Shown here: one piece after another, positions 2,411-11,068 of the stretch
How the letters are laid out: every line of letters starts with the position of its first letter
How positions within the stretch are numbered: position 1 is the first letter of the stretch
Assembly: GCA_017557405.1 (NCBI GenBank)
Contig: JAFYYV010000054.1
Span: 1 to 40,518, forward strand
From: Prevotella sp.
Lineage (GTDB): Bacteria; Bacteroidota; Bacteroidia; Bacteroidales; Bacteroidaceae
Direction: 5' to 3'
DNA: 40,518 nucleotides
Notes under the pieces: generated by a model
Database searches by the model: none
What the model was told of the DNA's origin: nothing
The model's input: only the letters and a program-made list of their open reading frames with translations
Position numbers and translations under genes: made by a program

Positions 2411-2452
2411 AAGGGAAATGTTCAAAGAAATTTGGCATTTCTCTTTTTTTTT
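2411..2452 (+). terminator. terminator overlapping the next promoter
   Basis: AAGGGAAATG (2411-2420) pairs with CATTTCTCTT (2436-2445) with one G-T wobble, and the right arm runs into a T tract to 2452. The loop contains the TTTG -33 box of the downstream promoter, so terminator and promoter occupy the same 50 bp. Confidence 0.6.
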
Positions 2453-2461
2453 GTAATTTTG
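2431..2461 (+). promoter_or_regulatory. promoter for a probably leaderless mRNA
   Basis: TTTG (2431-2434), a 19-nt spacer and TAATTTTG (2454-2461) fit the Bacteroidota consensus. The ATG of the next gene begins only 4 nt after the -7 box, so transcription should start at or next to the start codon. Confidence 0.75.
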
Positions 2462-2465
2462 CATC

Positions 2466-3176
2466 ATGAAATACGCCATCATAGCGGCGGGCGAGGGTCA
2501 ACGTCTGAACAAAGAGGGTGTTGACACGCCGAAACCGCTTGTCAAGATAAAAGGCGAACACTTGATTGACCGTCTCATCCGCATCTTTGCCGACAACGAT
2601 GCGGATGATATTTGCGTGATATGCAATGCGGCGATGCCCGAGGTGGTGAGCCATCTGGAGGAGGTGAGTCGGCAGGTTCCTTTGCGCTATGTGGCTCGAC
2701 AAACGCCCAGTTCGATGCATAGCCTCGATGTGTTGCGTCCGCTGATAGGGCGTGAGCCTTTTGTGTTGACAACGGTGGATACGGTGTTTCGCGAGGAGGA
2801 GTTCGCGCGCTATGTGAAGGACTTCAAGCGCGTGGTGGCCGATGGTGGCGGATTGATGGGAGTGACCGATTTCGTAGACGATGAAAAACCGCTCTACGTG
2901 GCGTGTGAAGGCAAGGCAGGTATGTCGGCCATCACGGGATTCTTCGACGAGCCTTGCGGTTGCCATTATGTCTCTGCCGGCATCTATGGACTCCCGCCTT
3001 TGGCGTTCGATACATTGACGGCTTGTGTGGCAAGGGGTGAGAGCCGCATGCGGAACTTCCAACGCGCGTTGGTGGCCGATGGAGTGGATTTGAAGGCGTG
3101 GCCTTTCACGCATGTGTTCGACATCGACCATGCTTCGGATATCGCCAAGGCGGAGGTTTTCTTAAACAATGAATGA
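2466..3176 (+). CDS. sugar/inositol-phosphate nucleotidyltransferase-like protein
   Basis: A 236-residue nucleotidyltransferase of the GT-A fold. The N terminus carries the nucleotide-binding signature AIIAAGEGQRLN (residues 4-15), followed by KPLVKIKGEHLIDR (about 28-41). TTVDTVF near residue 100 supplies the metal-binding Asp. Relatives make NDP-sugars, CDP-inositol or molybdopterin cytosine dinucleotide. The start cannot be further downstream because the signature begins at residue 4. It heads a four-gene operon with an ATP-grasp protein (3-nt gap), a CDP-alcohol phosphatidyltransferase and a HAD protein. From that context I infer activation of a phosphorylated polyol head group, possibly inositol phosphate to CDP-inositol. 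The substrate is not shown by the sequence. Confidence 0.75.
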   Translation: MKYAIIAAGEGQRLNKEGVDTPKPLVKIKGEHLIDRLIRIFADNDADDICVICNAAMPEVVSHLEEVSRQVPLRYVARQTPSSMHSLDVLRPLIGREPFVLTTVDTVFREEEFARYVKDFKRVVADGGGLMGVTDFVDDEKPLYVACEGKAGMSAITGFFDEPCGCHYVSAGIYGLPPLAFDTLTACVARGESRMRNFQRALVADGVDLKAWPFTHVFDIDHASDIAKAEVFLNNE

Positions 3177-3179
3177 GAA

Positions 3180-4022
3180 ATGGGAATTGAGAACAACATA
3201 ATTTTGGCCATCCAACGAGCCGAATGCTATTCACCAAACTCGGTGGAAAAAGATTTTGCTATCCTGCATGCCGTGGGAGAGCGATTGAAGGCGCTCGGAT
3301 GGATGGTGGAATATGTCTCTGAAGATAGTCTGACCGATGGCGAACTGCCTGTGGCGTCGGCTTATCTGTCGATGGCTCGTTCGCCTCATGTGCTTGAGAT
3401 GCTGAAACAAGCCGAGGTCGATGGTAGGTTGGTGCTGAACAGTCCGCAGGGTGTGGAATCGTGTACGCGAAGCCGTGTGGAGAAGGCCTTGCGAGGGCTT
3501 TCCAAGCCTCTTGTTCCACCTCGTCAGGGGGGGAACGGCTATTGGCTGAAACGTGGTGATGCATCGGCGCAGACAGAGGGCGACGTGGTGTATTGCAAGA
3601 ACGAGCAAGAGTTGGAGGAGGCCAAGCAGACGTTTGCGCGTAGGGGTATCAACGATTATGTGGTGAGCGCCCACGTGGAGGGCGATCTTGTGAAGTTCTA
3701 TGGTGTGCGTGGCTCGAAAGGATTCTTCTTCTATTGCTACCCCAACGAGAACGGCACGATGAAGTTTGGCGATGAGCGGCGCAATGGGAAGCCTCACCAT
3801 TATCCTTTTGATGTGGAGCAGTTGCGCGAGGACGCTTTCCGTGTGGCTGAGGTGACCTCGACCGACTTCTTTGGAGGCGATGTCATAGTACGCCCCGATG
3901 GCTCGTATGTGATGATTGACTTCAACGACTGGCCCAGCTATTCGAGTTGTTGTGAGGAGGCGGCAGAGGCAATAGCCAAGCGTTTCGAGGAAAAGCTTTT
4001 AAGGAAGAAGGATGAGGGATGA
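3180..4022 (+). CDS. ATP-grasp family protein, possibly a head-group kinase
   Basis: A 280-residue protein with ATP-grasp features. A lysine strand (YWLKRGDA, about residues 122-129) follows a basic loop. VSAHVEGDLVKFYGVRG (about 162-178) matches the hinge and phosphate-contact region. The C-terminal magnesium site reads DVIVRPDGSYVMIDFNDWPSY (about 234-254), with the D-x-N pair typical of the fold. That last segment resembles the DINxFPGY ending of inositol polyphosphate 5/6-kinases, but the similarity is short. Known ATP-grasp enzymes are carboxylate-amine ligases or kinases. In this operon, 3 nt after a nucleotidyltransferase, a small-molecule kinase that phosphorylates inositol or a similar polyol is an attractive inference. 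The 3' end runs into a repeat shared with the following gap. Confidence 0.65.
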   Translation: MGIENNIILAIQRAECYSPNSVEKDFAILHAVGERLKALGWMVEYVSEDSLTDGELPVASAYLSMARSPHVLEMLKQAEVDGRLVLNSPQGVESCTRSRVEKALRGLSKPLVPPRQGGNGYWLKRGDASAQTEGDVVYCKNEQELEEAKQTFARRGINDYVVSAHVEGDLVKFYGVRGSKGFFFYCYPNENGTMKFGDERRNGKPHHYPFDVEQLREDAFRVAEVTSTDFFGGDVIVRPDGSYVMIDFNDWPSYSSCCEEAAEAIAKRFEEKLLRKKDEG

Positions 4023-4150
4023 AGGAAGAAAGATGAGGGATGAAGGATTATATCCTTTTCCAAACCCTCATTCGTTTACTTCTCATCCAAAACGACAAAT
4101 AAAACCTCATCCCTAATTGCAAATAAACGTTCATCTTTCATCCTTCATCC
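4011..4150. repeat. direct and inverted GATGAGGGATGAAGGA repeats
   Basis: The 16-mer GATGAGGGATGAAGGA occurs at 4011-4026 and 4032-4047. A 20-bp arm at 4017-4036 has an inverted partner at 4131-4150 with 19 of 20 matches, and CTCATCC fragments lie between. The first copy overlaps the stop codon of the ATP-grasp gene. The mRNA could fold into a long hairpin between the second and third genes of the operon. Confidence 0.85.
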
Positions 4151-4168
4151 ATCAACTATTATATAAAA

Positions 4169-5176
4169 ATGCTTAACGGTAGGAGTTTCAAGGAGTTGTT
4201 GCATTCGACATTCAAGTCGAACGACACGGAGGAGTGGCTGGATGTTCATTTTACCCGCCCCATTGGCTTGGTGTTCGCCCTGTTCTGGATTCGTCTGGGC
4301 GTGCATCCCAATGCCATCACCATCTTGTCGATATTCCTTGGGTTGGGTGCTGCCTACAACTTCTATTTCACCGACCTGACGCACAATCTCATAGGTGTGG
4401 CGCTGCTGATGTTGGCCAACTTCTGCGACTCCACCGATGGGCAGATGGCTCGACTGACCAACCAGAAGACCATTGTAGGTAGGGTGCTCGATGGATTCTC
4501 GGGCGATGTGTGGTTCTTCAGCATCTACTTGGCCATCTGTCTGCGCACGATGCCTCAAACGATGCCTTTCTGTAATCAGCCGTGGGGCATTTGGATATGG
4601 GTGTTGGCGGCTTTCACGGGGTTGGTGCTCCATCTGCCTCAGAGCTCCACGAGCGATTATTATCGCCAGATTCATCTTTTCTTCCTGAAGGGTCGTGAAG
4701 GGAGCGAATTGGATAGTTATGCCAGTCAGCGGGCGATTTATGACAACTTGCCGCGCAAGGGTGCTTTTTGGGAGCGGTTGTTCTATTCCAATTATGCCAA
4801 CTATTGTCGTGGGCAGGAAAAACGTACGCCTCAATTCCAACGTTTCTTTGCGCTCTGGAAGGAGAAAACGGCAACGGCGGAAGGATTGCCAGCCGATGGA
4901 AAAACAGACCTTCCAACGGATGGAAAAGGTCGATTGGCAGAGTTGCGCGAGGCGTTTCTCGATGGCAGTAGGCCCTTGATGAAATACACGAATCTGCTGA
5001 CTTTCAACCTTCGAGCCATTTGCATCTATGTGACCTGCCTGCTGGGTTGTCCGTGGGTGTACTTCGTCTTCGAAATGACCGTGCTTCAGGGCATGTACAT
5101 GTATATGCATCGCTCGCATGAGCGGCTCTCAAAGCGGCTGTATGACGAATTGAATCAATCTTGTGAAACCTTGTAA
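4169..5176 (+). CDS. CDP-alcohol phosphatidyltransferase, variant motif
   Basis: A 335-residue membrane protein of the CDP-alcohol phosphatidyltransferase family, which joins a CDP-activated alcohol to a second alcohol at the membrane. The signature is present as D87-S-T-D90-G-Q-M-A-R95, then eight residues, G104 and D108. The last catalytic Asp, normally at +4 from D108, is a Gly (G112), and an Asp follows at 113 (LDGFSGD). Hydrophobic segments near residues 30-65, 72-88, 115-150 and at the C terminus fit membrane helices. A polar stretch around residues 175-270 makes it longer than most members, which are about 200 residues. Its neighbours suggest it uses a CDP-activated head group, perhaps CDP-inositol, to make phosphatidylinositol in one step. 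Confidence 0.8.
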   Translation: MLNGRSFKELLHSTFKSNDTEEWLDVHFTRPIGLVFALFWIRLGVHPNAITILSIFLGLGAAYNFYFTDLTHNLIGVALLMLANFCDSTDGQMARLTNQKTIVGRVLDGFSGDVWFFSIYLAICLRTMPQTMPFCNQPWGIWIWVLAAFTGLVLHLPQSSTSDYYRQIHLFFLKGREGSELDSYASQRAIYDNLPRKGAFWERLFYSNYANYCRGQEKRTPQFQRFFALWKEKTATAEGLPADGKTDLPTDGKGRLAELREAFLDGSRPLMKYTNLLTFNLRAICIYVTCLLGCPWVYFVFEMTVLQGMYMYMHRSHERLSKRLYDELNQSCETL

Positions 5177-5189
5177 ACGCTTGTTTTTC

Positions 5190-5927
5190 ATGGAAGCACA
5201 ATACTCAATCGACAACATCTTGGATGGCATTCGTGGCGTTGTATTCGACTACGGAGGCACCATCGACACCGATGGGCAGCATTGGGGCATGAAGATTTGG
5301 CATGCTTACGAACGACAGGGTATTCCCGTTGCGGAGGCCGACTATCGTGATGCGTATGTGGCGGCTGAGCGTATGTTGGGAAGTCATCCTCTCATCCAAC
5401 CCGATTACACGTTTCGGAAGACGCTTGAGATAAAACTCCGAATCCAATTGGAGCATCTGTGCATGAATGGCCATTGGGATGCTGATGAAGAGACGTTCAG
5501 GAAAACACATGCCGCCCTGCTCGACGATTTGTATGAGGACACGAAAGCGGTGGTGGCACGAAACAAGGTGGTGTTGGAAAAGATGAACCAACGTTTTCCT
5601 TTGGTGTTGGTGAGCAACTTCTATGGAAACCTCAATGCCGTGCTTCGTGAGTTCGCCCTCAATGGTCTTTTCAAACAAGTGGTGGAATCGGCGGTGGTTG
5701 GAGTTCGCAAACCTGATGCTCGCATCTATCAGTTGGGTGTCGATGCCTTGCAGATTCCCGCCTCACAAGTACTCTCCATCGGCGATAGTTTCTACAAGGA
5801 TGTGGAACCCTCGCACAAATGTGGAATGAGAACCGTTTGGTTGAAAGGGGAGGGGTGGACGGCTGCGGAATATGATGAAACGCTGCCAGACGTCATCATC
5901 CATAGTTTGAGGGAAATGATACAATAA
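5190..5927 (+). CDS. HAD-superfamily hydrolase-like protein
   Basis: A 245-residue HAD protein. Motif I is VVFDYGGTID, motif II LVLVSNF, motif III GVRKPDARIY (Lys), and motif IV SIGDSFYKDVEPS. The cap lies between motifs I and II. In motif I the residue two after the nucleophilic Asp is Gly, where most HAD phosphatases have the general-acid Asp. Activity may therefore be altered, or a phosphatase of unusual mechanism. A longer frame opens with GTG at 5163 inside the preceding gene, but the ATG at 5190, 13 nt after that gene's stop, is the better start. As the last gene of the head-group operon it may dephosphorylate an intermediate; this is inference. Confidence 0.75.
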   Translation: MEAQYSIDNILDGIRGVVFDYGGTIDTDGQHWGMKIWHAYERQGIPVAEADYRDAYVAAERMLGSHPLIQPDYTFRKTLEIKLRIQLEHLCMNGHWDADEETFRKTHAALLDDLYEDTKAVVARNKVVLEKMNQRFPLVLVSNFYGNLNAVLREFALNGLFKQVVESAVVGVRKPDARIYQLGVDALQIPASQVLSIGDSFYKDVEPSHKCGMRTVWLKGEGWTAAEYDETLPDVIIHSLREMIQ

Positions 5928-6018: not shown

Positions 6019-6849
6019 CTAAATCGCCTCCACATACTTGTCAATAAATCTCTCAACAGCAGGAATCTTCATGATGACTTTCTCCAAGAGCAGCAATCCA
6101 AGGATGGCTGTAATGATGCCCAAGATGACATCGATGATGTAATGGTGGGTGCTATAGACGGCTGTCCACCAGATGCCCACACAGATGAAGGCGAAGATGG
6201 CTACAGTCCACTTGTTCTGCTTGCTCAGCACCGCATAGACGGTTGTGATGAGCATGTAGGCGGCATGAAGCGAGGGAACGGCTGCAAACACGTTGGAGTT
6301 GCCCGAATAGATGGATTGGAACACAGGGAAGTGCATCATGTTGTCAAAACGAATGAGGCCTGCCACGCTTCCAGGAGTGTTCAATACGGGTTCGAATCCG
6401 TGGTTGATGACATACCAAGGTGGAGCGGCAGGGTAGATGTAATAGCCAACGAATCCCAACAAGTTGATGAAAAGGAAGGCGATGGAGAAATGGATGAAAT
6501 GCCGCTTCTCGCCTTTCAGATAGAGATAGATGGCAAACCCCAATGGAACGGGCACCCAACAGAGATAGAAGAAGCCTGCCCAGAAGTCGGCGAACGCCGA
6601 GTTGTGAAGGTTGAAATACTCGCCAGGGATGAGTGTGGAGCCATTGGCCACCGTGATGCCAAAGAGTGATTTCTCGGCCTCGTAGATGCCACGTACATCG
6701 ATGGGGTTGACCTCGTAGTTGGGAAGCAGCCGCATCCAGTCGTAGGAGCAGGCGAAGATGAGCCAAGGCGTCAGGGCAATGGCAATCTTGCGCGAAGGTT
6801 TCCACGCCACGAGAATCAAATAAAGAAGGATGATGTATATGCTGTACAT
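6019..6849 (-). CDS. Aur1/PAP2-type inositolphosphorylceramide synthase-like
   Basis: A 276-residue polytopic membrane protein of the PAP2 / Aur1 group. Catalytic motifs are PSLHAAY (residues 192-198, His195) and STHHYIIDVILG (233-244, with His235/236 and Asp240). These match the C2 and C3 motifs of lipid phosphotransferases, where a His nucleophile is assisted by a His-Asp pair. Several hydrophobic helices flank them. The corresponding gene of the B. thetaiotaomicron inositol-lipid cluster is proposed to move phosphoinositol to dihydroceramide. The ATG shares one base with the stop of the upstream phosphatidyltransferase (TAATG), indicating translational coupling. Substrate is inferred from gene order. 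Confidence 0.75.
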   Translation of the reverse strand: MYSIYIILLYLILVAWKPSRKIAIALTPWLIFACSYDWMRLLPNYEVNPIDVRGIYEAEKSLFGITVANGSTLIPGEYFNLHNSAFADFWAGFFYLCWVPVPLGFAIYLYLKGEKRHFIHFSIAFLFINLLGFVGYYIYPAAPPWYVINHGFEPVLNTPGSVAGLIRFDNMMHFPVFQSIYSGNSNVFAAVPSLHAAYMLITTVYAVLSKQNKWTVAIFAFICVGIWWTAVYSTHHYIIDVILGIITAILGLLLLEKVIMKIPAVERFIDKYVEAI

Positions 6850-7487
6850 TATTTACCTTTCAGTTGGTTGTAGCAATGCAGAATGCGCCAGAAGGCGGTG
6901 ATGTTGGCCAACACGGCGATGAGAATCATTCCTCCTGCCAACCACCACAGATTGCCCGTTGCTCCGCTGATAATGGCTGTAATGGCTGTCACCACCACTC
7001 GTTCGGGGCGTTGCATCAATCCCACCTTGCATTCTATGCCGAGTCCTTCAGCACGCGCTCTCACATAACTCACCATCACCGAACCTATCATGGCGGCGAA
7101 GGTGACTACGCTAAGCCAGAACCAGTCGCGTTTGACAAACACCAGACAGATGCCCGCCAAGGTGATGAGTTCGCTATAGCGGTCGAGCGTGGAATCCCAC
7201 ATGGCGCCGAATACCGATGACATGTTGCCCATGCGAGCCAAACGACCATCCATCATGTCGAAGAGACCTGCGAAAAGAATCATGCCACCTCCCCATCCAA
7301 TGAGTTCGTAGGGGCAACTCTCCGAAGTTGTCATAGCCGCTTTGACGAACATGCCAGCGGCGACAATGTTGAGCAGAAGCCCTATGGTTGTGATGATGTT
7401 GGGCGTGAGACCAATCTTAATCATCCCTTTGATGAGCGGGTTGATGATTTGGTATATGATTTTTTGTAAATAATCTCGATAGTTCAT
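6849..7487 (-). CDS. CDP-alcohol phosphatidyltransferase, PI-phosphate synthase-like
   Basis: A 212-residue membrane protein with the full family signature: D77-x2-D80-G-R-L-A-R85, eight residues, G94-x3-D98-x3-D102, followed by Arg103. Length and motif are canonical, unlike the second family member in this window at 4169-5176. The DSTLDRYSE sequence resembles phosphatidylinositol-phosphate synthases, which join CDP-diacylglycerol and inositol-1-phosphate. Other head groups are possible. It overlaps the preceding GtrA-like gene by 4 nt (ATGA) and the following Aur1-like gene by 1 nt, so the operon is tightly coupled. Position and neighbours correspond to the phosphatidyltransferase of the B. 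thetaiotaomicron inositol-lipid cluster. Confidence 0.8.
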
Positions 7488-7927
7488 TTCTTGTTTTTAT
7501 TCTTTATTTTTTTAATCAAATCCGTGAGGTGTATGTCGCGATAGACAAAATTCTTTTGCATCAGGTAGTTCCAAAGGAGTGCTACCAATACGGCCACGAT
7601 GATCTTGGAATAGACGAAATGGGTCTTCGACCACTCGGTGAGCAGGTAGGTTCCGCCTGTGTTCAGCAAGATGCTGCCCGACCATACCATGAAGTATTTC
7701 AAAGCCACATATTTCTTCTTCAATCCGATGGCGTTGAACACCCATCGGTAGTTGACCACGCAGTTGAAGACACCACCGCTCAATGCGCCAATGAAGGTGG
7801 AATAAAGATACCAGATACCCAACACCTCCGCCATGAAAAGCGAAACCGCAAAGTCAATGATCGTGGCTGCTTGTGCCGACAATTGCGCTTTGCAGAAGGT
7901 CCATATCTGGTGTCTCAGAGAATCCAT
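7484..7927 (-). CDS. GtrA-like four-helix membrane protein
   Basis: A 147-residue protein with four hydrophobic segments (near [48 protein letters not shown] and [21 protein letters not shown]). The spacing and the closing N-Y-x-M-x-K-x-F-V-Y pattern are typical of GtrA-family proteins. These are linked to moving polyprenyl-linked sugars or to other envelope glycan steps. A TTG-started frame opens at 7936, but the ATG at 7927 is preferred. This start lies inside the end of the PgpA-like gene (13-nt overlap). In the inositol-lipid context it could help move a lipid or head group across the membrane; no direct evidence. Confidence 0.75.
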
Positions 7928-8385
7928 TGTGCGCAAATGATGATCAATAAACTATAGATGCCAGCCAATATGTCGTCGGCCATGACTCCGATTCCACCAG
8001 GAAAACGTTCCATCTGTCGGATGCCCAAAGGCTTTGCGATGTCGAAGAAACGAAACAAGACGAACGATGCCAGCGCATACCAGATGTTGCCCACAGGGGC
8101 GGCAATCAAGGGTATCCATACGCCCACCATCTCATCGACCACCACACGGCGAGGGTCTTCACCCCAGAAGGGAATCATCTTGTTGGTCGACCAGATGCCC
8201 AGCAAGGTGAACAACACAGTCAACACGATGGTCAACACTATGCAGGCGGTCGGGGTGAGAATCGTTGAGTAGCCCAACCAGATGAGGGTAGCCAACAATG
8301 CTCCCGCCGTGCCTGGTGCGACAGGGCAGAATCCCGAACCGAAGCCCGTAGACAATATGACGGGTATAAGCGGCTTTTTCCCCAT
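7915..8385 (-). CDS. PgpA-type lipid-phosphate phosphatase
   Basis: A 156-residue membrane protein of the phosphatidylglycerophosphatase A family. Diagnostic parts are the N-terminal GFGSGFCPVAPGTAGALLA (about residues 15-33) and the acidic block EDPRRVVVDEMVGVW (about 75-89). Hydrophobic helices follow each. PgpA removes phosphate from phosphatidylglycerol phosphate. In B. thetaiotaomicron the homologue within the inositol-lipid cluster is reported to act on phosphatidylinositol phosphate instead. It is the first gene of the - operon, and its neighbours favour the second role. The ATG follows a -7 box by only 8 nt, so the transcript has almost no leader. Confidence 0.8.
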   Translation of the reverse strand: MGKKPLIPVILSTGFGSGFCPVAPGTAGALLATLIWLGYSTILTPTACIVLTIVLTVLFTLLGIWSTNKMIPFWGEDPRRVVVDEMVGVWIPLIAAPVGNIWYALASFVLFRFFDIAKPLGIRQMERFPGGIGVMADDILAGIYSLLIIICAQWIL

Positions 8386-8515: not shown

Positions 8516-11068
8516 GTGACATTGAAAAGATTATTCGCTTTTTTATTTGTATTCTCGATATATGCAGATTGGGCATGCGCCCAAATCACCGGTGAGATTC
8601 TTGATGCCACCGACAATTATCCTATCCCTTATGCCAGCGCTTCGTATAACGGACACAAGATTGCCGTGTCGAGTGATGGCAATGGACGATTCAACATTGA
8701 ACGACACAACGGATGGCGACTGACGTTCTCTTCTGTGGGCTATCAGCCGCAGATTGTGAATGTGACCGCGAACACTCCCAACAACTTGACGATTCGACTG
8801 AAACCCGAAACCAAGAAAATCAGTGAGGTGGAGGTCGTATCGAAGCGCAATGGAAGATACAGCCGAAAGAACAATCCTGCCGTGGAGTTCATGAGGAAGG
8901 TGATTGCCGCCAAGAAACGCACCGACCTGAAGAAGCACGACTATTATCAGTATAACAACTATCAGAAGATCATGCTGGGAATGAACGACCTCACTCCCCC
9001 TGATCTCGAGTCGGGTATGTTCAAGCGCCATTCGTGGTTGCTCGACCACATTGAGGTGTGCCCCTACAACGGCAAACTCATTCTTCCCATCTCGGTCGAT
9101 GAGACGGTCACCCAGAAGCTATATCGCAAAGACCCACACACAGAAAAGAGCATCATCAAGGGTGAGAACTCGACGGGTGTGAACGAGTTGTTCCAAACAG
9201 GCGACATCATCAATGTCATCTTGAAAGACGTCTTCACCGATGTGGACATCTACGAGGATGAGGTGCGTATGTTCCAATATCCTTTCACCAGTCCTATCGG
9301 CAAGGATGCCATCGCATTCTATCGCTTCTACATTACCGATACGGTGTATGTGGGCAAGGACCGTTGCGTTCATCTCGATTTCATACCCAACAACCAGCAG
9401 GACTTCGGCTTCCGTGGGCAGCTCTTCGTGCTCGACGACTCTTCCTACCAAGTGAAACGATGCGAGCTCTCCATCCCCAAGAAGAGTGGTGTGAACTGGG
9501 TTGACAACATGCAATGCACACAGGAGTACATGCAGTTGGAGAATGGTGAATGGGTGCTGTCGGTGGATGATATGATGGTCGAACTTTCGGCTATGAAGTC
9601 GTTGGCAAAGGCCATTGTGGTGCGCACAACACGCCGTTCCGACTATGCGTTCGATGAACTCCCCAAGGCACTTCTACGTGGCAGCAAGGGCGTCAGGAAG
9701 GACGCCTATGCCCAGATGCAGGATGATGAGTTCTGGAACAAATACCGACAGGTGGAGCTCACGAAAGGTGAGAGCTCGATGGATCAGTTCATCCATCGGT
9801 TGGAGAACCTGAAGGGTTTCAAATATGTGATTTTCGGTATGAAGGCGCTCATCGAGAACTTCGTGGAGACAGGTTCGAAGGAGCATCCCAGCTTGGTCGA
9901 CATAGGTCCTATCAACACCATCGTCTCCCACAACTTCTACGATGGTCTTCGCTTGCGTGGTAGTGCCCAGACGACCGCCAACCTGAATCCCCATTTCTTC
10001 CTGAAGGGGTACTATGCGCACGGTTTCGATACCAAGAACAACTATTACGGAGCCGATGTCATCTACTCGTTCAACAAGAAGGAATACTTGCCGCGAGAGT
10101 TCCCCAAACAGACACTTTCGTTCTCGATGTCGCACGATGTGGCGTTGCCTTCCGACAAGTTCATCCAAACCGACAAGGACAACGTTTTCACCTCGTTCAA
10201 GGTGGCTGAAATCGACAAGATGTTCCTTTACACCAAGCAGGAGCTTGCTTTCGAGTTCGAGCAGGAATGGGGCTTCAAGGTGTTTGCTTCGGCAAAGGCC
10301 GAGAAAGCCCAACCTGTTGGCAACATCGCCTTCAAACAACTCGATGGTCAGACCCAGCCTTACGTTCGTTATACCGAGGCGACAGCAGGACTCCGCTATG
10401 CGCCCGGAGAGACGTTCATCAACACCAAGCAGCACCGATGGCCCATCAACCTCGATGCCCCCGTCTTCCGCTTGCAACACACGATGGGCTTCGACCGCGT
10501 GTTCGGAGGTCAATACAACTACAATTTCACCGAAGCCGAGTTCTACAAGCGTCTTTGGATGCCCATGAACTGGGGAAAGATAGATACTCGCATAAAAGCT
10601 GGAGCACAATGGAACCAAGTGCCATACCCGTTGCTCATCATGCCGGTGGCCAACCTTTCCTACATTCTTGAAGACCAGACGTTCAACCTCATCAACAACA
10701 TGGAGTTCTTGAACGACCGCTATGCCTCGCTCGAAATGTCGTGGGACATGAACGGAAAACTGCTCAACCGCATACCGCTCATCAAGAAGCTGAAGTGGCG
10801 CGAGTTCATTGGCGTGAAGTGCCTGTGGGGTGCCTTGACCGACAAGAACAACCCTTATCTGGCGCAGAACGAAGGCAGCAGCGTGCTCATGGAGTTCCCC
10901 GAGGGTTGTTACGTCATGGACAAGAAAAAGCCTTACGTGGAGATTTGTGCCGGCGTGCACAACATCTTCAACATCCTTCACATCGAGTATGTGCGCCGAC
11001 TCAATTATCTTGAGTTGCCCACGGCCAACAAACACGGTGTGCGCTTCATGTTCCGAACGACATTCTAA
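8516..11068 (+). CDS. DUF5686 / carboxypeptidase-regulatory-like outer-membrane protein
   Basis: An 850-residue outer-membrane protein. After a signal peptide (cut near CAQ, residue 22) comes a carboxypeptidase-D regulatory-like beta-sandwich (about residues 23-105, ITGEILDATDNYPIPYASASYN through LKPETKKISEVEVVSK). The long remainder has the DUF5686 pattern and ends in beta-barrel strands and a C-terminal Phe (FMFRTTF), as expected for an outer-membrane barrel. Function is not established for the family. No ATG is available. GTG at 8516 gives the longest frame; TTG at 8522 would put AAAGGA at a better ribosome-binding distance. The signal peptide works with either. Confidence 0.8.
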   Translation: MTLKRLFAFLFVFSIYADWACAQITGEILDATDNYPIPYASASYNGHKIAVSSDGNGRFNIERHNGWRLTFSSVGYQPQIVNVTANTPNNLTIRLKPETKKISEVEVVSKRNGRYSRKNNPAVEFMRKVIAAKKRTDLKKHDYYQYNNYQKIMLGMNDLTPPDLESGMFKRHSWLLDHIEVCPYNGKLILPISVDETVTQKLYRKDPHTEKSIIKGENSTGVNELFQTGDIINVILKDVFTDVDIYEDEVRMFQYPFTSPIGKDAIAFYRFYITDTVYVGKDRCVHLDFIPNNQQDFGFRGQLFVLDDSSYQVKRCELSIPKKSGVNWVDNMQCTQEYMQLENGEWVLSVDDMMVELSAMKSLAKAIVVRTTRRSDYAFDELPKALLRGSKGVRKDAYAQMQDDEFWNKYRQVELTKGESSMDQFIHRLENLKGFKYVIFGMKALIENFVETGSKEHPSLVDIGPINTIVSHNFYDGLRLRGSAQTTANLNPHFFLKGYYAHGFDTKNNYYGADVIYSFNKKEYLPREFPKQTLSFSMSHDVALPSDKFIQTDKDNVFTSFKVAEIDKMFLYTKQELAFEFEQEWGFKVFASAKAEKAQPVGNIAFKQLDGQTQPYVRYTEATAGLRYAPGETFINTKQHRWPINLDAPVFRLQHTMGFDRVFGGQYNYNFTEAEFYKRLWMPMNWGKIDTRIKAGAQWNQVPYPLLIMPVANLSYILEDQTFNLINNMEFLNDRYASLEMSWDMNGKLLNRIPLIKKLKWREFIGVKCLWGALTDKNNPYLAQNEGSSVLMEFPEGCYVMDKKKPYVEICAGVHNIFNILHIEYVRRLNYLELPTANKHGVRFMFRTTF

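Follow-up and report, generated by a model that had tools for sequence, protein, structure and literature searches.

In Bacteroides thetaiotaomicron, inositol lipids are made by the products of the PIP-type cluster BT_1522-1526, in which the lipid is activated rather than the inositol, and no ATP-grasp gene has been described there. CDP-inositol was reportedly presented as the head-group donor in phospholipid synthesis by Jorge in 2015, to judge by the title of that reference, in a system said to be that of Rhodothermus marinus, in which we know of no ATP-grasp kinase. A CDP-inositol route devoid of any PIP intermediate has been proposed in the same host group as that studied here (Bacteroides vulgatus and Prevotella) for an alternative cluster encoding an NTP transferase, a CDP-alcohol transferase and a HAD protein, the latter being proposed as the phosphoinositol dihydroceramide (PI-DHC) synthase; the gene for myo-inositol-phosphate synthase (MIPS) is usually adjacent to this cluster, with some exceptions (Heaver 2022, PMC9246714). 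The CDP-head-group logic, described in the preliminary description of the present locus as opposite to the usual CDP-diacylglycerol one, is not new: it had already been proposed for the same gene set (PMC9246714) and, going by a reference title, reported in 2015.

The window analyzed here, i.e., the whole stretch of 40,518 nucleotides from Prevotella sp., carries four genes on the + strand which, on the basis of their context and of comparisons, appear to correspond to this published alternative inositol-lipid cluster. NTP (2466..3176, 236 aa; Pfam PF00483/PF12804 above cut-off) encodes a nucleotidyltransferase, probably an inositol-phosphate cytidylyltransferase; AGR (3180..4022, 280 aa) an ATP-grasp protein, probably an (amino)inositol kinase; PTR (4169..5176, 335 aa) a CDP-alcohol phosphotransferase in which Gly112 replaces the fourth Asp of the motif; and HAD (5190..5927 from the ATG, also open from a GTG at 5163; Pfam PF00702) a HAD-superfamily protein with a DYGGT motif I. 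NTP and AGR are 3 bases apart, AGR and PTR 146, and PTR and HAD either overlap or are separated by 13 bases, depending on the HAD start. A G/A-rich repeat and its inverted copies, identified by repeat matches (4017..4150, +), are predicted by RNA folding to form a strong hairpin between AGR and PTR (-43 kcal/mol, z -6.1). Four bases before the first ATG, there is a promoter-like TTTG-N19-TAnnTTTG (2431..2461, +), which we take to be a promoter consensus; this pattern match is weak on its own, with two matches in the window vs. 0.49 expected. Further genomes contain the same four-gene set, usually with the gene order unchanged, and the grouping is hence not due to chance. The four ORFs lie exactly at the positions given in the preliminary description and constitute a conserved operon, but no role was assigned there to HAD and the adjoining PIP-type cassette was missed.

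The presence of this cassette next to the operon distinguishes the window genome from the Heaver 2022 cluster. It is homologous to that of B. thetaiotaomicron, occupies positions 6019-8385 on the - strand and is convergent to the operon. It consists of a BT_1522-like homologue of the PAP2-type PI-DHC synthase (6019..6849; NF052609, 410 bits, cut-off 480), a BT_1523-like homologue of the PIP synthase (PIPS) in which the canonical fourth Asp is present (6849..7487; NF052561, 293.6 bits, cut-off 350), a GtrA-family membrane protein (7484..7936; PF04138) and a PgpA-family, BT_1525-like homologue of the PIP phosphatase (7915..8385; PF04608, 142 bits) assigned by cluster resemblance. The first two genes are clear homologues of PI-DHC synthase and PIPS, respectively, with scores that fall short of the equivalog cut-offs in NCBIfam. 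MIPS is encoded in the same genome on another contig (C29), apart from the operon.

The NTP sequence gave only matches far below cut-off in NCBIfam, including AglF (2.9e-15) and IPCT-DIPPS (2.8e-9). Among the PDB profiles, the IPCT structures 2xme (1.1e-7) and 4mnd (1e-6) were matched, several sugar nucleotidyltransferases ranking higher. CDP-inositol, the intermediate put forward previously, is favoured by the context and comparisons and is likely to be the activated form. PTR matches CDP-OH_P_transf (PF01066) with 44 bits vs. a cut-off of 22, and the residues of the motif D-x2-DG-x2-AR-x8-G-x3-D are kept in 126/126 sequences. Its closest solved folds, based on an alignment of 70 of the 75 named-locus sequences plus that of the window, are the CDP-alcohol phosphotransferases of archaeal AF2299 and IPCT-DIPPS, and the head group of DIPPS is, by its name, carried on CDP. 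PTR differs from these enzymes in that it lacks the fourth Asp, which was found in only 3/161 sequences (including a divergent second copy carried by L078), and in that it carries a conserved H-x2-Q-x4-DYYR-x2-H segment. In HAD, the nucleophile D29, the motif III K183 and the motif IV acidic pair D208 and D213 are present in 127/127 sequences; the D+2 position of motif I, at which a general acid/base is expected in HAD phosphatases, is Gly in 127/127. The idea that PTR and HAD might be dead because of the loss of the fourth Asp and of D+2 was set aside, since the other catalytic residues are invariant.

The constancy of AGR was similar to that of the rest of the operon. PTR matches occurred in 68 of 119 relatives and were split manually into 50 genomes with the cluster PTR, 12 with the PTR2 paralogue only (10 by locus context, G033 and G037 by identity alone) and 6 weak cases; AGR was present in 47 of the 50, the three exceptions being at most 81% complete. 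AGR is also fused with its neighbors: when identical sequences and matches covering less than 75-80% of the model were left out of the fusion and residue counts, there were eight NTP~AGR fused ORFs (in one of which AGR is split into two matches), two AGR~HAD, one NTP~AGR~PTR and seven PTR~HAD, the latter perhaps from six genomes, since two are on contigs of equal length. In some of the named loci (the best 80 of 572 confirmed loci, part of which come from the same genomes as the relative set), AGR, HAD and MIPS are adjacent and NTP and PTR more distant (e.g., L092, L098, L124, and L138). MIPS lies within the retrieved stretch in 28 of these best 80 of 572 loci, and the cluster is contiguous with MIPS in two classes. 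At the level of the order, MIPS was found in 44/48 genomes with AGR vs. 19/344 without it (Fisher p 2e-38, kinship ignored), 48 of 53 AGR matches (E <=2e-60) being counted. The genome lists were compiled manually; 17 of 34 PIPS matches (E <=8.5e-62) were counted, and the MIPS counts take in partial matches (e.g., G002 and G068). Eight of the 47 AGR-bearing relatives, including one single-contig genome, lack MIPS and yet keep all four genes (HAD lying apart in G006), as a salvage kinase would allow.

No match was obtained with the AGR of the window in Pfam or NCBIfam. Its AlphaFold2 model (mean pLDDT 93.5) resembles ATP-grasp structures, and among solved structures, the ITPK inositol-phosphate kinases were the top profile matches. 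ITPK and PPIP5K share with AGR the ATP-grasp fold and the metal motif D-x-N, which is E-x-N in the ligase PsnB; D247 and N249 are present in 132/133 AGR sequences, with one gap. The resemblance is distant: StITPK1 was matched by Foldseek with 14% identity, and with PF05770 the AGR of the window gave no match and four of 26 AGR members matched (best E 0.015), the gathering score not being reached. The comparison of the predicted structure with inositol kinases, suggested previously as a check, gave an ATP-grasp fold and a score of 18.3 with ITPK1, but the ligase RimK scored slightly higher, at 19.5, and fold comparisons were therefore set aside as the sole judge between kinase and ligase.

The substrates of ITPK and PPIP5K, known ATP-grasp kinases, are inositol phosphates; the kinase role is thus not new for the superfamily as such, but to our knowledge, an ATP-grasp kinase acting on unphosphorylated inositol would be. 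Since MIPS is encoded in this genome, AGR is not needed merely for obtaining inositol phosphate, and the idea that it is required only because MIPS is missing was rejected. With this reservation, the previous proposal that the ATP-grasp protein phosphorylates inositol holds in that AGR is, by context and comparison, the best candidate inositol kinase of the operon. The main text of PMC9246714 nowhere mentions an ATP-grasp protein, and no description of this protein was found among the titles and abstract openings listed in searches of the open-access PMC literature.

The best explanation for these data, which we hold with slightly more confidence than doubt, is that the operon encodes the alternative inositol-lipid pathway of Bacteroidota, in which AGR would be an overlooked core enzyme. 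MIPS, the gene for which is present elsewhere in the genome, would produce inositol 3-phosphate; HAD would strip the phosphate to give free inositol; the ITPK-like AGR would phosphorylate free inositol, whether made or imported, at the bridge position; NTP would form CDP-inositol; and PTR would attach phosphoinositol to diacylglycerol, dihydroceramide or both, CMP being released and no PIP intermediate being formed. PI-DHC has been detected in two species assigned to the alternative cluster (PMC9246714). We hypothesize that the kinase and the phosphatase may jointly swap the phosphate so as to yield the usual D-1 linkage, the enantiomer being unreadable from the sequence.

In another class, 12 clusters additionally carry an IolG-like dehydrogenase, the best NCBIfam match of which is inositol 2-dehydrogenase, far below cut-off, and a class III aminotransferase. 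All 12 have Q67 instead of Arg in AGR and D/E84 instead of Asn in PTR (one truncated PTR, that of L193, being omitted from the PTR comparison), whereas the clusters outside the order of the window without these two genes have R67 in 6/7 AGR (one exception) and N/Q84 in 7/7 PTR. Seven of the 19 clusters (four with and three without the extra genes) were retrieved after the AGR-67 rule had been set down, and all seven fit it; only two or three of the changes at residues 67 and 84 are independent. No column of the NTP, HAD and MIPS alignments, from which L225 and L226 were left out, separates the two sets. Such matching changes in charge in AGR and PTR would be expected for a substrate that has acquired an amine, and these clusters, adding the dehydrogenase and aminotransferase to the same core, probably make an aminoinositol lipid; no description of an aminoinositol phospholipid was found among the titles and abstract openings listed in searches of the open-access PMC literature. 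A broader reading, which we put forward tentatively and with rather more doubt than confidence, is that ATP-grasp kinases of unphosphorylated cyclitols are a new enzyme type at the core of CDP-head-group lipid synthesis across Bacteroidota, permitting the use of free, imported or aminated inositol; that a two-site charge code (AGR 67, PTR 84) separates inositol from aminoinositol and predicts aminoinositol phospholipids; and that PTR represents a transferase subfamily that dispenses with the usual fourth Asp and has a sister clade handling amine head groups, for example ethanolamine.

Alternatively, AGR might act on inositol monophosphate, so that a phosphorylated inositol lipid would be formed via CDP and HAD would remove the ring phosphate from a PIP-like intermediate. 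According to PMC12077091, the inositol 3-phosphate produced by MIPS is a substrate of ITPK1, and the ITPK profile matches and PTR~HAD fusions are in line with this possibility; we nevertheless regard it as unlikely, as AGR is kept in MIPS-less genomes and the clusters with a dehydrogenase and an aminotransferase indicate a free-cyclitol stage. The pathway as set out in PMC9246714, where the MIPS product would enter NTP directly, PTR would form PI-DAG and HAD would convert PI-DAG to PI-DHC, with AGR as an accessory, agrees with the PTR~HAD fusions and with the MIPS genes found in 28 of the best 80 of 572 loci. It seems quite improbable given the constancy of AGR, its fusions to NTP and PTR, the persistence of the operon without MIPS, and the HAD residues, which are those of a soluble phospho-aspartyl enzyme. 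A RimK/ArgX/Ddl-like ligase attaching an amino acid or another carboxylate to the head group was given more weight because the gap between RimK and ITPK1 exceeds the tie margin of the tool; it is still very improbable, since the metal motif is D-x-N and not E-x-N, the four-gene core has no evident carboxylate-making gene, and R67/Q67 tracks the aminotransferase and dehydrogenase genes. We likewise give very little credence to a polyol phosphate other than inositol as the head group in some or all carriers, despite the lack of MIPS in 8/47 relatives and 4/48 order-level AGR genomes and the sugar-phosphate transferases nearest to NTP, in view of the AGR-MIPS association (kinship ignored), the contiguity with MIPS in two classes and the PI-DHC detected in the two species referred to above (PMC9246714).

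In a gut Bacteroides, both fitness and the capsule are influenced by inositol lipids, and in B. thetaiotaomicron, which has the PIP-type route only, inositol in the medium does not rescue the loss of inositol synthesis (PMC9246714). Prevotella-type bacteria could make inositol lipids from environmental inositol, provided that AGR is an inositol kinase. AGR would then be a bacterial counterpart of the eukaryotic ITPK, located beside inositol synthesis, and the existence of aminoinositol lipids would be predicted.

The operon at 2466..5927 (plus strand) is the alternative inositol-lipid cluster published for B. vulgatus and Prevotella, for which it was proposed that the NTP transferase (NTP) produces CDP-inositol, the CDP-alcohol transferase (PTR) PI and the HAD-superfamily protein (HAD) PI-DHC (PMC9246714). 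A 2023 review restates this pathway as predicted and not fully characterised (PMC10191378). The preliminary description pointed to the attachment of CDP to the head group as the opposite of the usual logic; it was already known, since it forms part of this proposal and CDP-inositol was named as a donor in a report of 2015 (as judged from its title in a reference list). A search of the main text of PMC9246714 did not yield the term "ATP-grasp", and "kinase" was found there in the references only.

Convergent to the operon, on the minus strand (6019-8385), lie homologues of the PAP2-type PI-dihydroceramide synthase, PIP synthase, GtrA and PgpA. This cassette is the B. thetaiotaomicron route, and the genome therefore carries both inositol-lipid routes side by side, tail to tail; the myo-inositol-phosphate synthase (MIPS) gene is on a separate contig. 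The layout of the two routes is identical in a Prevotellaceae bacterium (L149), and both are also present, in a different gene order, at L070/L182. The PIP synthase of the cassette occurs in 17 of the 119 genomes of relatives, 4 of which also carry the ATP-grasp protein (AGR). Three genomes (G006, G029, and G046) encode both routes, and MIPS was not found in them. The large protein encoded at 8516-11068 in the window is identified by position only as carboxypeptidase-regulatory-like (BT_1527-like); 69 of the 80 named loci (the best 80 of 572 confirmed) encode a homologue close to their inositol-lipid cluster. Between the AGR and PTR genes (4017-4150), a G/A-rich repeat and its inverted copies show a strong hairpin fold (z -6.1).

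AGR is a core member of the cluster. It was identified in 47/119 relative genomes, all of them among the 50/119 carrying the cluster's own PTR, and the three PTR genomes without AGR are 61, 78, and 81% complete. At the named loci, which were picked by AGR (best 80 of 572), HAD was present within the stretch in 78/80, PTR in 77/80, NTP in 77/80, and MIPS in 28/80. Single ORFs fuse NTP with AGR (n = 8, one with AGR as two separate matches), AGR with HAD (n = 2), and PTR with HAD (n = 7, perhaps from 6 genomes, since two contigs are of equal length). An 825-aa ORF (L186:5422-7896) combines NTP, AGR, and PTR in a genome in which MIPS was not found. At L092, L098, L124, and L138, the AGR, HAD, and MIPS genes are grouped together, NTP and PTR being more distant.

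When a profile of 26 AGRs was compared with the PDB, the top matches were Arabidopsis ITPK4 (8.8e-5), the ligase PsnB (1.6e-4), and human ITPK1 (5e-4). A broader 34-sequence profile matched Entamoeba ITPK (1.7e-7), PsnB (1.5e-5), ITPK4 (1.8e-5), human ITPK1 (2e-4), ArgX (0.001), and RimK (0.0016); with 81 closer AGRs, ITPK4 reached just 0.039, beside a chance match at 0.041. Searched singly, the 26 AGRs gave weak matches to PF05770 (ITPK) in four cases (best 0.015) and to ATPgrasp_ST in four (best 0.046). The D-x-N metal motif is common to AGR and the aligned ITPKs, whereas PsnB has E-x-N, as is usual in other ligases. AGR may thus act as ITPKs do, although it is not filed as a member of that family. 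In plant ITPK4 there is a HAD-like domain in which the second Asp of motif I is missing (PMC7614388), a parallel to the AGR-HAD fusions which may be a coincidence.

Strong AGR matches were detected in 15 of the 392 genomes of a phylum-wide sample (10 of these genomes belong to classes other than the window's), and AGR was present in 13/217 and 11/79 genomes in two further samples. Nineteen clusters from beyond the window's order were studied (L216-L234); among these, L225 belongs to the window's class, and L216 and L227 to one genome. NTP, AGR, PTR, and HAD occur in all 19, MIPS and a flippase-like LPG_synthase_TM protein each in 17, and 12 have the MlaE/F/D genes for lipid transport. Twelve clusters (L216-L218, L220-L224, L228-L230, and L234), 10 of which have the MlaEFD genes, contain two added genes, for a Gfo/Idh/MocA dehydrogenase and a class III aminotransferase. 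The best NCBIfam match of the only dehydrogenase scanned (L217) was inositol 2-dehydrogenase, far below the cut-off. Since the order proposed for hygromycin A is MIPS, phosphatase, inositol dehydrogenase, and aminotransferase (PMC10949010), the two added genes suggest by analogy that the route passes through a free cyclitol, preceded by a phosphatase step and followed by a kinase step. These clusters are predicted to make an aminoinositol lipid, for which they may also encode a dedicated transporter.

Residue 67 of AGR is Arg in all 133 sequences from the window's order. Gln occurs there in 12/12 clusters with the two added genes, four of which also keep an Arg copy, and Arg in 6/7 clusters without them, the exception being L226; this rule was recorded before seven more clusters were fetched, all of which fit. 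Residue 84 of PTR, three before the first motif Asp, was picked out by a column scan of 12 clusters versus 5 (L225 and L226 left out). NTP, HAD, and MIPS had no separating column and PTR had four, of which residue 84 is the one at the motif. It is D/E in 12/12 clusters with the added genes, N/Q in 7/7 without, and N in 125/128 PTRs of the window's order (sister clade PTR2 excluded). The loss of a positive charge by the kinase and the gain of a negative one by the transferase would be expected if the substrate carried an amine. A limit of this pattern is that the tree needs just three changes for it, two of them forced by supported branches. The cluster PTRs at L231:5384-6397 and L233:4786-5706 retain the fourth motif Asp and could serve as natural comparators for the PTRs that have lost it.

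Among 392 genomes sampled at order level, 48 gave strong AGR matches, 63 had MIPS, and 44 had both. The family search detected no MIPS in 8 of the 47 near relatives with AGR, in which a protein search for MIPS gave nothing but one chance match (E 0.2). The completeness of these eight genomes ranges from 76 to 99%, four of them reaching 99%, and one (G016) consists of a single contig; all retain NTP, AGR, PTR, and HAD, with HAD apart in G006. Three of the four order-level AGR genomes without MIPS have all four genes within the stretch, and G308 shows only NTP and AGR there. Such carriers would have to obtain inositol from their surroundings and phosphorylate it with a kinase, which the kinase role first proposed for AGR predicts; alternatively, these genomes may use a head group other than inositol. 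The PTR2 clusters (L166-L181, e.g., L178:4642-8516) suggest an ethanolamine-type head group: the two fully scanned (L178 and L179) encode a HisC/CobD-like PLP enzyme, an NTP transferase, and an LPG_synthase_TM protein, and homologues of these three flank many others. Residue 84 is D in 13/14 PTR2 sequences, and the PTR2 clusters are a candidate source of dihydroceramide phosphoethanolamine.

What the analysis shows is the order, conservation, fusion, and co-occurrence of the genes, together with the residue patterns and the predicted fold; the activities of all the enzymes are inferred. In the most economical reading, MIPS, HAD, AGR, NTP, and PTR would act in this order, with a free-inositol stage; its weakest points are the PTR-HAD fusions and the HAD kept in genomes without MIPS. 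A known kind of pathway would hold, at its centre, a new enzyme activity open to testing.
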